Of a stretch of DNA of 64,000 nt, positions 2,282-26,993 are shown piece after piece. The position numbers and the translations under genes are program-made. Position 1 is the stretch's first letter; each line of letters starts with the position of its first letter. The notes below the pieces were generated by a model. It did no database searches and had not been told where the DNA came from. It saw nothing but the letters and a program-made list of their open reading frames with translations. Source of the DNA: Congzhengia minquanensis (lineage in GTDB: Bacteria; Bacillota; Clostridia; UBA1381; UBA9506); NCBI RefSeq assembly GCF_014384785.1, contig NZ_JACRSU010000003.1:186001-250000 (forward strand). The letters run 5' to 3'.

Positions 2282-2310
2282 TTGACAGTAAATACCCGAA
2301 ATGATATAAT
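2282..2310 (+). promoter_or_regulatory. Strong promoter upstream of XRE array 1
   Basis: TTGACA (2282-2287), 17 bases, TATAAT (2305-2310), with AAATGA directly before the -10. Transcription would start near 2317, some 165 bases before the first XRE codon. A short G-rich then T-rich segment (2336-2357) follows, so the transcript may either end there as a small RNA or read on into the array. Confidence 0.8.
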
Positions 2311-2374
2311 TATAATGTCACTCATAACTGAATCAAGGGAGTTGCTGTCTTTTTTTGTTTGTATTTTTATTATA

Positions 2375-2422
2375 ATCTACAATAATGTAGATGTCAATAC
2401 TTATATCTACAAATATGTAGAA
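2375..2422 (+). promoter_or_regulatory. Tandem CTACA-N4-TGTAG operators
   Basis: Two palindromes, ATCTACA-ATAA-TGTAGAT (2375-2392) and ATCTACA-AATA-TGTAGAA (2405-2422), have centres 30 bases apart, close to three helical turns. The second abuts a TATATTATA -10-like sequence near 2429-2437. Paired short palindromes of this size are typical XRE-dimer operators, so the array probably regulates itself here. Confidence 0.7.
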
Positions 2423-2480: not shown

Positions 2481-2801
2481 ATGTTTTGGGATACGTTTTA
2501 TGACTTATGTAAGAAAAATAATACGACTCCAAATGCAGTTTGTGCAAGCGTTGGATTATCAACTGCTACATCTACCCATTGGAAAAACGGTGTAATTCCG
2601 AATTTGAAAACTGTATCTATGCTGGCAGAATATTTTGACGTTTCCATTGATTATCTTCTCGGGAAAGAAGAAATGACGGTTGAGCAATTTTTAATTGATG
2701 AGAATATGGTAGTGTATCGTCGGAATGGTAAAATTATCAAGGAAAAATTTACAGATGAACAAATGGAACGTGTTGTTAAATTTATTAAAACCATAAAGTA
2801 A
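2481..2801 (+). CDS. XRE-family regulator, array 1 gene 1
   Basis: A 106-residue protein: a Cro/C1-type five-helix HTH (about 5-62, recognition region SVGLSTATSTHWKNG) ending in the family phrase DVSIDYLLGKEE, then about 40 extra C-terminal residues rich in charged side chains. It is the only member of either array with this extension and lacks the GRTD tail. RBS AGGAGGTG (2469-2476) is eight or nine bases before the ATG. It follows two palindromic operators, so it is the best candidate for the autoregulator. Base composition is clearly AT-rich compared with tgt downstream. Confidence 0.85.
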   Translation: MFWDTFYDLCKKNNTTPNAVCASVGLSTATSTHWKNGVIPNLKTVSMLAEYFDVSIDYLLGKEEMTVEQFLIDENMVVYRRNGKIIKEKFTDEQMERVVKFIKTIK

Positions 2802-2809
2802 GGGTTGTT

Positions 2810-3031
2810 ATGTGCGAAATAGAGAGAATTTCGGAGCTTTTGAAAAAGCAGAATAAAACGCAAAAGGAGTTAACGGATTATCTTGGTGTGAGTAAAAATC
2901 TGTTTACAGAATGGAAAGCCGGTCGGAACCATTCTTATTGGAAATACTTAAAAGAAATTGCCGACTGCTTAGACTGTTCCATTGATTATCTGGTGGGCAG
3001 AACGGACATACCCGACGTAAACAAGGGATAG
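2810..3031 (+). CDS. Small XRE-family regulator, array 1 gene 2
   Basis: A 73-residue single-domain HTH with nothing beyond the DNA-binding fold. The reading half (QKELTDYLGVSKNLFTEWKAG) differs from its neighbours, while the C-terminal CLDCSIDYLVGRTDIPDVNKG is shared with them. It starts eight bases after the previous stop, so it is in the same operon. No ligand or toxin domain is present. Function beyond DNA binding is unknown. Confidence 0.85.
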   Translation: MCEIERISELLKKQNKTQKELTDYLGVSKNLFTEWKAGRNHSYWKYLKEIADCLDCSIDYLVGRTDIPDVNKG

Positions 3032-3044
3032 GTGTGAATAAAAT

Positions 3045-3266
3045 ATGGTAAACCTAAGCAATCTATTTCTACGAATGGAAGAATTAAATGTAACTTCAAA
3101 AAAGCTTTCGGATGCAACCGGAATATCCACTGGAAATATCGGTGATTGGAAATATGGCAGGAGTAAGCCGGGCGCTGAAAGCTTAATATTATTGGCCGAT
3201 TGCCTTGATTGTTCGGTAGATTACCTTCTTGGAAGAACAGATGTGCCTGAAATGAACAGAAAATAG
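3045..3266 (+). CDS. Small XRE-family regulator, array 1 gene 3
   Basis: A 73-residue single-domain HTH ending [21 protein letters not shown]. It is closest to the next gene: both have the pattern NLFxRxxExxxTxKxxSxxTGISTGNxxDWKxGR and then a GAE segment, indicating a recent tandem duplication. Its AGGTG ribosome binding site overlaps the stop codon of the previous gene, so translation may be coupled. Confidence 0.85.
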   Translation: MVNLSNLFLRMEELNVTSKKLSDATGISTGNIGDWKYGRSKPGAESLILLADCLDCSVDYLLGRTDVPEMNRK

Positions 3267-24726: not shown

Positions 24727-24757
24727 CGCCGCAGACATTAGTCTGCGGCGCTTTTTT
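24727..24757. terminator. Terminator of the CBM protein gene
   Basis: Perfect stem CGCCGCAGAC/GTCTGCGGCG (24727-24750) with an ATTA loop, followed by CTTTTTT. The stop codon of the convergent 79-codon gene falls inside the stem. Confidence 0.9.
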
Positions 24758-24977
24758 CGCGGCTTAAAACTCTTGCCAGAGAGTTTGCCGCTGTGCGAAA
24801 ACCGTCGAGATAACCCTGCTCAAACGCGTTTTTGGAGACAACCATCTCCATCTCGCCGCAGATGTCAAAAACCTCGTCTTCAAAGCGTTCATATTCAGAA
24901 GTTGAAAAGGAATTTTTGCACAGGACTAACTTTTTCCTTAAAACTTCTTCCAGTTCAAGGAATTTTGTGTTTTCCAA
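24738..24977 (-). CDS. Small DUF6809-like protein
   Basis: A 79-residue, mostly helical acidic protein. The end SKNAFEQGYLDGFRTAANSLARVL resembles the F-x-x-G-F-R-x-(G/A) close of DUF6809, a family of small uncharacterised proteins in gut Clostridia. The start is TTG 24977 behind GAGGTGA. The gene is divergent from XRE array 2 and its leader contains the long palindrome at 25005-25032. Function unknown; family assignment is by eye and moderate. Confidence 0.6.
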   Translation of the reverse strand: MENTKFLELEEVLRKKLVLCKNSFSTSEYERFEDEVFDICGEMEMVVSKNAFEQGYLDGFRTAANSLARVLSREKSAAD

Positions 24978-25057: not shown

Positions 25058-25087
25058 TTGACAAGGTCCGCCACAAAATGATATAAT
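25058..25087 (+). promoter_or_regulatory. Strong promoter upstream of XRE array 2
   Basis: TTGACA (25058-25063), 18 bases, TATAAT (25082-25087), with AAATGA directly before the -10 exactly as in the promoter at 2282-2310. The predicted transcript folds GC-bulge-ACGA (25094-25100) with TCGTGC (25118-25123) and meets a T-run at 25125-25130, so it may end as a short RNA. Confidence 0.75.
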
Positions 25088-25168
25088 AAATCTGCTACGA
25101 ACTATGTATATCTTTCCTATGGGGGACTCGTGCCTTTTTTGATTACAAACAGATTATATCACGTTATC

Positions 25169-25201
25169 CAGTGAATATCAAGATGAATCACTGTATAAAA
25201 T
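25169..25201 (+). promoter_or_regulatory. Operator-like inverted repeat before XRE array 2
   Basis: CAGTGA (25169-25174) and TCACTG (25188-25193) are separated by 13 bases and abut TATAAAATG, a possible -10. The half-sites differ from the CTACA/TGTAG operators of array 1, which suggests the two arrays are controlled by different members. Confidence 0.5.
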
Positions 25202-25240
25202 GAAATTTGTGCAAAATACTGAAAAAGAGGTGCAAAATTT

Positions 25241-25471
25241 ATGTATAATACACAAAAAATTGCTGAAAGAATTAAATTACAAGCAAAATTACGTGGTGTT
25301 ACAATGCAAACGATGCTTTCAGAAATTGGTTTAGGAATAAACACAGTTTCACAATTAGCAAAAGGTCAGGTTATATCATCAATAAAACTTGCTCAAATTG
25401 CAGATTATCTTGATTGTTCTGTAGATTATCTCTTATGTAGAACGGATAATTCGAGAATTTTAAATAAGTAG
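25241..25471 (+). CDS. Small XRE-family regulator, array 2 gene 1
   Basis: A 76-residue single-domain HTH. The reading half is RGVTMQTMLSEIGLGINTVSQL; the tail is YLDCSVDYLLCRTDNSRILNK, with Cys in place of the usual Gly of GRTD. Similar to the next gene over its whole length. RBS AGAGGTG. Strongly AT-rich coding sequence. Confidence 0.83.
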   Translation: MYNTQKIAERIKLQAKLRGVTMQTMLSEIGLGINTVSQLAKGQVISSIKLAQIADYLDCSVDYLLCRTDNSRILNK

Positions 25472-25482
25472 GTGAAGATATA

Positions 25483-25713
25483 ATGTGTTATTATACTGAG
25501 AAAATTGCAAACAGAATAAAAAAATGTGCTAGGGAACGTAGTGTAACTTTACAAAAAATGCTATCCGATTTGGGATTTGGCATTAACTTGATTTCTCAAT
25601 TGGCTCATGGGCAAGAAATTTCGTCTATAAATCTTGCAAAGATTGCTGATTATTTAGGTTGCTCAGTAGACTATTTGTTAGGAAGAACGGACAATCCGAA
25701 AATAAATCATTAA
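25483..25713 (+). CDS. Small XRE-family regulator, array 2 gene 2
   Basis: A 76-residue single-domain HTH with ERSVTLQKMLSDLGFGINLI in the reading half and [20 protein letters not shown] at the end. It begins 11 bases after gene 1. A 32-base stretch of its 3' end (25666-25697) is repeated with a single change in gene 3 (25896-25927). Confidence 0.85.
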   Translation: MCYYTEKIANRIKKCARERSVTLQKMLSDLGFGINLISQLAHGQEISSINLAKIADYLGCSVDYLLGRTDNPKINH

Positions 25714-25727
25714 GGAAGGTTCGGCGA

Positions 25728-25943
25728 ATGTTTAAAGATATTTTAAATAAAAAACTAGAAGCAAACGATTTATCCGTATATCAGATTGCAAAAGAAACAA
25801 ATATTCCAAAATCCACACTGTATGAATGGTCTTCGGGTGAGCGGGAACCTTTTTCTGAGTACCTTGTTCCATTGGCCGATTATTTGGGCTGTTCCGTAGA
25901 CTATTTGTTAGGAAGAACAGACAATCCAAACATAAATAAGTGA
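25728..25943 (+). CDS. Small XRE-family regulator, array 2 gene 3
   Basis: A 71-residue HTH, start ATG 25728 behind AAGGAAGG; an upstream in-frame ATG would overlap gene 2. The N-terminal half (NDLSVYQIAKETNIPKSTLY) is unlike gene 2, but the C-terminal end is nearly identical at the DNA level, a mosaic pattern that points to recombination or gene conversion of the tail. Confidence 0.85.
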   Translation: MFKDILNKKLEANDLSVYQIAKETNIPKSTLYEWSSGEREPFSEYLVPLADYLGCSVDYLLGRTDNPNINK

Positions 25944-25961
25944 TAAAAGGATTGGAATTTT

Positions 25962-26189
25962 ATGAAACATGAAAAGACAGCAAAAATTATTAAAGAATTA
26001 TGTTATAAAAAAAATGTTTCCATTACCAAATTGTTAGATTCATGCGGTATAAGAAAAAGTTTAATATATGATTTGGAAAAACGACATTATACACCCTCAG
26101 CCGAATTGTTAGAAATAATTGCGGACTATTTCAATTGTTCCGTAGATTACCTGCTGGGCAGAACAGACAATCCAAGAATCAATGAGTAG
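25962..26189 (+). CDS. Small XRE-family regulator, array 2 gene 4
   Basis: A 75-residue HTH with [20 protein letters not shown] in the reading half and [20 protein letters not shown] at the end. Last member; the mntP promoter begins nine bases after its stop, with no terminator visible in between, so array transcription may continue into mntP. Confidence 0.84.
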
Positions 26190-26197
26190 TTATTCTA

Positions 26198-26226
26198 TTG
26201 ACATTTTTTCTATCATATGGTATAAT
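26198..26226 (+). promoter_or_regulatory. Promoter of mntP
   Basis: TTGACA (26198-26203), 17 bases, TATAAT (26221-26226), a perfect sigma-A consensus. It shows that an ATG at 26198 cannot be the mntP start. Confidence 0.9.
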
Positions 26227-26842: not shown

Positions 26843-26856
26843 GACAAAACTACATC

Positions 26857-26956
26857 ATTATGAGGGAGTAATTCCGCGTAAAATTGACGCGGGATAGCAC
26901 CAACATCATGGCGGCAAAGCCGCCTGGTCTATCCATAAAGAATGAGACTCATATAC
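26857..26956 (+). promoter_or_regulatory. yybP-ykoY manganese riboswitch aptamer
   Basis: The segment has the class features in order: basal stem TTATGAG/CTCATA, the conserved GGGAGTA (26864-26870), stem P2 CCGCGT/ACGCGG, the GCACCAACATCA loop region (26897-26908) that docks the metal, stem GGCGG-CAAA-GCCGCC, and the closing GAGAC-like TGAGACTCATA. The 3' strand of the basal stem is also the 5' arm of the terminator that follows, so Mn2+ binding would prevent termination. Its place before a P-type ATPase and after mntP fits the known biology of this class. Confidence 0.85.
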
Positions 26957-26993
26957 AAATCCTGCCGGAGGCGTATATGAGTCTTTCTTTTTC
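26945..26993 (+). terminator. Riboswitch-controlled terminator
   Basis: Arms GACTCATATAC (26945-26955) and GTATATGAGTC (26973-26983) followed by TTTCTTTTTC. The 5' arm overlaps the closing strand of the aptamer's basal stem, giving mutually exclusive folds: terminator without metal, read-through with metal. Confidence 0.88.

Follow-up and report, generated by a model that had tools for sequence, protein, structure and literature searches.

Predicted convergent promoters and paired operators in front of two arrays of miniature XRE repressor genes in Congzhengia minquanensis

What do four miniature XRE regulator genes do side by side in the chromosome of Congzhengia minquanensis, and how did they come together? 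We analysed them within a stretch of 64,000 nucleotides (the window), which holds this array (array 2) and a second one (array 1) 21.7 kb upstream. The original prediction had described four tightly spaced genes of 71–76 codons with a common tail, and a sister array about 22 kb away, and all of this was borne out. The genes are separated by 11, 14, and 18 bp (B1–B2, B2–B3, and B3–B4), and the residues L, AD, CS, DYL, and RTD of the tail are invariant in all seven members compared. A purine-rich stretch resembling a ribosome-binding site lies 5' of each array 2 gene. The longest open reading frame (ORF) of B3 would begin at a TTG (25659), but the ATG at 25728 is the one consistent with the family. 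Array 1 consists of a longer lead gene followed by three short mini-XRE genes. All eight ORFs of the two arrays are intact (Table 1).

Table 1. Genes and predicted control elements of the two arrays, by position in the window
Feature	Position	Strand	Basis
Array 1, predicted forward promoter PF	2282..2310	+	12/12 consensus positions
Array 1, predicted reverse promoter PR	2369..2397	-	12/12 consensus positions
Array 1, putative operator 1, TCTACAATAATGTAGA	2376..2391	.	sequence palindrome
Array 1, putative operator 2, TCTACAAATATGTAGA	2406..2421	.	sequence palindrome
Array 1, lead gene (106 aa); 48% identity over 65 aa with the G311 array's lead gene	2481..2801	+	
Array 1, second gene, mini-XRE	2810..3031	+	
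Array 1, third gene, mini-XRE	3045..3266	+	
Array 1, fourth gene, mini-XRE; 99% match to P0241	3278..3502	+	
79-aa ORF downstream of PR of array 2, possible PR target	24738..24977	-	ORF list
Array 2, predicted forward promoter PF (TTGACA, 18 bp, TATAAT)	25058..25087	+	12/12 consensus positions
Array 2, predicted reverse promoter PR (TTGATA, 17 bp, TATAAT), opposite PF	25153..25181	-	11/12 consensus positions
Array 2, putative operator 1, TCACGTTATCCAGTGA, within the PR spacer	25159..25174	.	sequence palindrome
Array 2, putative operator 2, TCACTGTATAAAATGA, 29 bp from operator 1	25188..25203	.	sequence palindrome
B1, mini-XRE, 76 aa	25241..25471	+	ORF, Pfam, PHROG
B2, mini-XRE, 76 aa; 68% identical to B1	25483..25713	+	ORF, Pfam, PHROG
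B3, mini-XRE of 71 aa from another HTH class; 66% identity with L391 1080-1295	25728..25943	+	
B4, mini-XRE of 75 aa from another HTH class; 64% identity with L193 1498-1758	25962..26189	+	

All four array 2 proteins match the Pfam families HTH_3 and HTH_26. B2, B3, and B4 score above at least one curated cut-off, and B1 lies slightly below both (22.4 against 23 bits and 20.8 against 22 bits). Each also matches PHROG 8 ("transcriptional regulator") with E values of 5e-16 to 2e-20, and the pairwise similarity among members is well beyond chance (phmmer, E down to 4e-28). Pfam found no further domain beside the XRE HTH in B1–B4, whose 71–76 residues are HTH only. The four repressors fall into three HTH classes, one of which is shared by B1 and B2. 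The AlphaFold model of B2 has five helices and a mean pLDDT of 81. A Foldseek search with this model lists the domains of SinR, ImmR (PDB ID: 7t8i), P22 c2, 434 Cro, and TP901-1 CI, none of them below an E value of 0.001. The best PDB match by sequence is P22 c2, and ICEBs1 ImmR is listed there as well. From sequence and modeled fold, the array 2 proteins are XRE repressors of the phage CI/Cro type without an effector domain. They have the five-helix fold and palindromic operators in common with phage repressors such as P22 c2, 434 Cro, and TP901-1 CI, the operators here being seen in the DNA sequence only. Unlike phage CI, they stand in arrays of several apparent specificities away from phage genes and lack the C-terminal cleavage/oligomerization domain, which Cro also lacks. 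ICEBs1 ImmR is the XRE immunity repressor of an integrative element. It resembles the array proteins in both sequence and fold; unlike in ICEBs1, no ImmA-like protease or integrase was found among the nine neighboring genes scanned. In this fold, the near-invariant tail is likely part of the dimer surface.

The original prediction had passed over the control region that precedes each array. In both arrays, the predicted promoters PF and PR converge. Their predicted starts, placed approximately 7 bp past each −10 box, are 52 bp apart in array 2 and 45 bp apart in array 1. The 17-bp spacer of PR is filled by a palindrome (operator 1), and a second copy (operator 2) follows 29–30 bp further on. 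The array 2 operators differ from TCACTGNNNNCAGTGA by two mismatches each. There are four sites in the window within two mismatches of this pattern, and none of 100 shuffled sequences holds as many. The array 1 operator pattern has three sites in the window, a number equaled in 8 of 100 shuffles when the presence of two exact copies 30 bp apart is ignored. A hairpin with GGGGATTATTA before both arrays was rejected as a signal, as its two exact matches are not clearly over chance. Neither the window nor four fetched loci gave an Rfam match at the curated cut-offs.

To place this architecture among its relatives, we gathered genes with a CSVDYL-type tail from IMG/VR, one plasmid record, and other genomes. 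There are 66 distinct genes from viral contigs and Clostridia genomes with enough upstream DNA, including six array-internal genes of the window, all without PR. A reverse promoter with at least 10 of 12 consensus positions lies upstream of 46 of these 66 (2.34 expected from dinucleotide shuffles), and one with at least 11 of 12 upstream of 32 (0.1 expected). Read in the forward direction, this upstream region yields such a promoter for 3 of 66. The reverse promoter is retained in 31 of 40 clusters after collapsing at 60% identity. In the 43 genes with PR, the palindromy of operator 1 exceeds that of shuffles (5.6 against 4.6 of 7 pairs). Operator 1 shares 13.6 of 17 bases with the operator 2 of the same gene, against 9.7 of 17 with those of other genes; its own partner ranks first in 20 of 43 cases. 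Operator 2 begins 7–8 bp past the −35 box in 34 of the 43. Judged by these sequence patterns, PR with paired operators is general in the relatives. Of 42 genes, 16 have a strong PF further upstream (0.9 expected); seven of the 16 come from one genome and one is from the window. The face-to-face PF is thus clear in the window and in genome G432 but not in most viral relatives, and the full predicted layout is not general.

Genome G432 carries eight dispersed units (L217, L221–L226, and L228) with a conserved control region of approximately 290 bp, made up of a forward promoter, a leader, and a reverse promoter. Their operators differ and their flanks are unrelated, which resembles a small dispersed cassette. 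At three other loci (L081, L087, and L101), PR would drive one or two hydrophobic peptides of 29–42 aa together with an XRE protein of 63–66 aa. The hydrophobic peptides tested from this set gave no significant family match.

The operator sequence goes with the HTH half of the protein and not with the common tail, as is shown statistically by comparing sequences of 49 genes (2000 permutations; p floor 5e-4). Operator similarity rises with similarity in the recognition helix (r=0.25, p=5e-4), in helix 2 (r=0.24, p=5e-4), in helix 1 (r=0.19, p=5e-4), and in the stretch after the recognition helix (r=0.16, p=1e-3). No such correlation is seen for the helix 4–5 core (r=0.05, p=0.21) or for the tail (r=0.05, p=0.17). 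Common descent accounts for part of the link: the remainder of the protein shows a correlation just as high as that of the recognition helix (r=0.26), with a partial r of 0.17 left to either one given the other. In an out-of-sample set of 17 new genes, 10 had PR. For these, the training gene closest in its HTH had an operator that resembled theirs more than chance would give (4.69 of 7 against 3.72 expected, p=5e-5). Among the 49 training operators, it ranked 1, 2, 2, 5, and 1 in the five genes with the best HTH matches and between 11 and 40 in the remaining five.

Scanning viral contigs with operator patterns as a blind test for repressors worked well for two classes and poorly for two. The expected repressor was present at seven of seven and six of six loci for the first two classes, mostly on contigs already used. 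It was present at two of eight loci for the B4 class and at none of eight for another class, and two of the empty matches precede HicB-like antitoxin genes. The operator alone is not diagnostic, since the scan gave such mixed results. The window is not enriched for the site classes that B4 (TTACGT-ACGTAA; 2 sites, 2.0 expected) and the products of the third and fourth genes of array 1 (TCGTA-TACGA; 1 site, 0.9 expected) would be expected to bind, so these three proteins may act elsewhere.

Two arrays within one window had been taken to mean that the family amplifies. This does not follow. For five of the eight members, the BLASTP bit score among the loci compared is higher against a gene outside the arrays than against any array neighbor: in array 1 the lead gene (71.6 outside against 41.6), the third (111 against 98.6), and the fourth (105 against 98.6), and in array 2 B3 (107 against 56.2) and B4 (105 against 59.3). 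The other three tie, namely the second gene of array 1 (64.7 outside, 65.5 neighbor), B1 (97.8 and 97.8), and B2 (97.4 and 97.8). Amplification of a single gene was rejected as the main account on these grounds. Array 2 may in part have arisen by plain duplication, as B1 and B2 share an HTH class.

The same prediction had seen a dispersed and expandable family of single-domain DNA binders, and this part of it is well founded. Genome G432 holds at least nine members at eight places. Among the fetched loci there are 20 distinct arrays or pairs, including the two of the window, with HTH classes mixed in varied combinations. Arrays in the window, G311, and G855 begin with an MFW-type lead gene; in G457 a B3-type gene comes after a different first gene; and G311 and G106 contain B4-type genes. 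Close homologues exist for B2 (P0001, 99%), B4 (P0121, 95%), and the last array 1 gene (P0241, 99%), and the genome that carries P0241 probably holds a further member, P0123, a 72% relative of B4. The nearest genome to the window among the two orders searched is G506 (PriA 74% identical), followed by G507 and G508 at 67–68%. Array 1 is not present at the same site in G507 and G508, where 104 bp and 132 bp, respectively, separate the homologue of ORF 1484–2116 from tgt; the window has 1546 bp there. In 20 genomes of the nearest family, mostly fragmented, no subfamily member was found among the matches examined, the best of which (71.5 bits, G516) belongs to another XRE subfamily.

Several other genomes have array members with near-identical tail DNA beneath unrelated HTH halves. 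Synonymous codons were compared across 14 genomes or contigs, picked for holding at least two members and contributing 50 genes in all. Tail codons agree 0.26 more within than between genomes (p=2e-4, the floor), and codons of the HTH half only 0.03 more (p=0.10). Within-genome agreement in the tail is large in G311 (41/46), G855 (40/46), L092 (39/44), G457 (14/15), L081 (14/16), and G286 (38/46), and moderate in L082 (11/16), G432 (252/410), Monoglobus (24/41), and G106 (43/74). Homogenization of the tail DNA is absent or weak in G796 (2/15), L091 (5/14), contig 2563367167 (106/222), and the window itself (126/268). In the genomes and contigs with a large effect, the tail has likely undergone recombination or gene conversion, because codon bias should raise the agreement of both halves alike. 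A pair of near-identical mini-XRE genes in G106 (L193 16–240 and 1951–2181) differs almost only in the final dozen residues; one has the common tail and the other does not.

Array 2 had also been described as free of phage genes. No phage family was found in the nine neighboring genes scanned against Pfam, and the claim stands for those nine only. They include no restriction or methylase gene either, and the PADLOC matches are to HTH proteins of several systems (the best is capH, 1.5e-10, for B4). The nine genes give no sign of a restriction-modification controller or known defense system. These surroundings are compatible with a decayed origin, in which immunity modules left over from prophages or integrative elements lie together by chance and serve at most to control themselves. 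The proteins are phage-type by PHROG 8, and several of their closest relatives are encoded on viral contigs. Against decay, all eight ORFs are intact and the predicted promoters and operators are near perfect. Unlike HTH classes in one operon are also not expected from a single decayed prophage with one repressor, though two or three mini-XRE genes do occur together on some prophage-like contigs. We consider this origin unlikely.

The gene that follows array 2 is mntP, with a 12/12 promoter at 26198–26226. None of 80 loci has an array beside mntP, but most of them probably come from genomes that are not closely related. A stretch at 26851–26993, between mntP and a cation-ATPase gene, weakly resembles the manganese riboswitch (16 bits against a cut-off of 45).

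On the other side, PR of array 2 reads toward a 79-aa ORF, which may be a real target. The operon may even exist mainly to regulate it. As a host switch, the array would control this divergent ORF or else genes of the host, acting as a bistable regulator or within a toxin–antitoxin-like pair. A distant homologue of the ORF in G506 (L396 10754–11359) is likewise divergent from an XRE gene (HTH_26) and adjoins a reverse promoter with the palindrome CGGTAAGATATTACCG in its spacer, and in G286 the divergent gene encodes DUF6809. The 79-aa ORF itself, however, has no credible family match and is not DUF6809 by Pfam. DUF6809 was rejected as a general partner, since a divergent XRE gene accompanies it in just 2 of 26 loci with enough upstream DNA (30 fetched). 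Nor does PR of array 1 have a convincing downstream gene, with only minus-strand ORFs of 24–49 aa there. A single target would also leave four repressors of three HTH classes unexplained, and a host switch of this kind appears distinctly improbable to us.

The original prediction had raised the possibility of a phase-variable or combinatorial host DNA-binding system. Phase variation is not supported in the region of array 2, where no tandem repeat was found and none of the four inverted pairs (14–18 nt) flanks the array or its promoters. A combinatorial arrangement could draw on the near-invariant tail, which would permit mixed dimers, and on the unequal halves of several operators, including those of array 2. 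The array 1 operators, in contrast, are symmetric. We regard such a system as very improbable. Convergent promoters could make expression bistable, which would be epigenetic switching and is distinct from phase variation.

The reading that we favor, and hold to be somewhat the likelier case, is that array 2 is a phage-type switch driving accreted and differently aimed repressors, most likely conferring trans-acting immunity against elements whose operators match. The anatomy of the operon and its predicted control region is well supported; the immunity role is what we infer. B1 and B2 would match the array operators, bind operators 1 and 2, and run the switch. PR transcription, when on, would collide with PF. 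Repressor on the two operators would shut PR and free PF, and the repressed state would sustain itself as in the P2/186 phage switch. B3 and B4, with other presumed specificities, would work in trans when a prophage or integrative element that carries matching operators enters the cell, at its early promoters. On this view, the operon would amount to a modest store of immunity repressors gathered from mobile DNA. Its natural targets would be the early promoters of the relatives on viral contigs, two of which (L081 and L101) carry a related repressor beside a phage-type integrase.

What is new here is a variant of the temperate-phage switch, more organized than had been seen at first. In P2-like phages, the lytic and lysogenic promoters are described as standing face to face, 40–60 bp apart (PMC7498355), and the predicted starts in front of both arrays are spaced similarly. 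In phage 186, pR is reported to interfere with pL (PMC7708051). As far as these accounts of P2 and 186 go, the arrays differ in that the transcript on the lysogenic side would carry four small repressors with no integrase alongside. The operators also differ: here they are two palindromes, one of them inside a promoter spacer, and 186 is described with flanking CI sites and Apl sites. In mycobacteria, a lone cloned repressor is reported to defend the cell against phages with matching sites (PMC6550527). This defense is the point of likeness to cluster A mycobacteriophage immunity, in which the repressor is of another type, acts at asymmetric stoperator sites (PMC9283540), and is not known to stand in arrays.

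More broadly, and only tentatively, Clostridia might keep chromosomal banks of miniature immunity repressors as a protein-based memory against mobile DNA. Prophage modules of an HTH half and its operator would be joined to the resident tail by recombination in the short homologous 3' stretch, with the tail kept uniform in each genome while heads and operators turn over. We think this possible but doubtful. If true, bacteria free of a given prophage would still carry its immunity key, several per operon, renewed by head swaps onto a common tail, and gut Clostridia would have a simple extra layer of immunity. It would also make the arrays a natural library of many differently aimed repressor–operator pairs with a readable recognition code, in which dozens of small, naturally paired sets could serve for testing HTH–target rules and for building orthogonal switches. 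A search of the openly licensed PMC literature with narrow terms found no earlier description of chromosomal arrays of such mini repressors.

Two other designs came up among the fetched loci. On other mobile contigs (L365–L372), each locus has several TCAAG-TTTCTTGA repeats at positions that resemble promoters, with no mini-XRE gene within 520 bp on the tested side. At L354 and L356, dual TACGTAA palindromes lie at the promoter before HicB-like antitoxin genes, a like design in another system.
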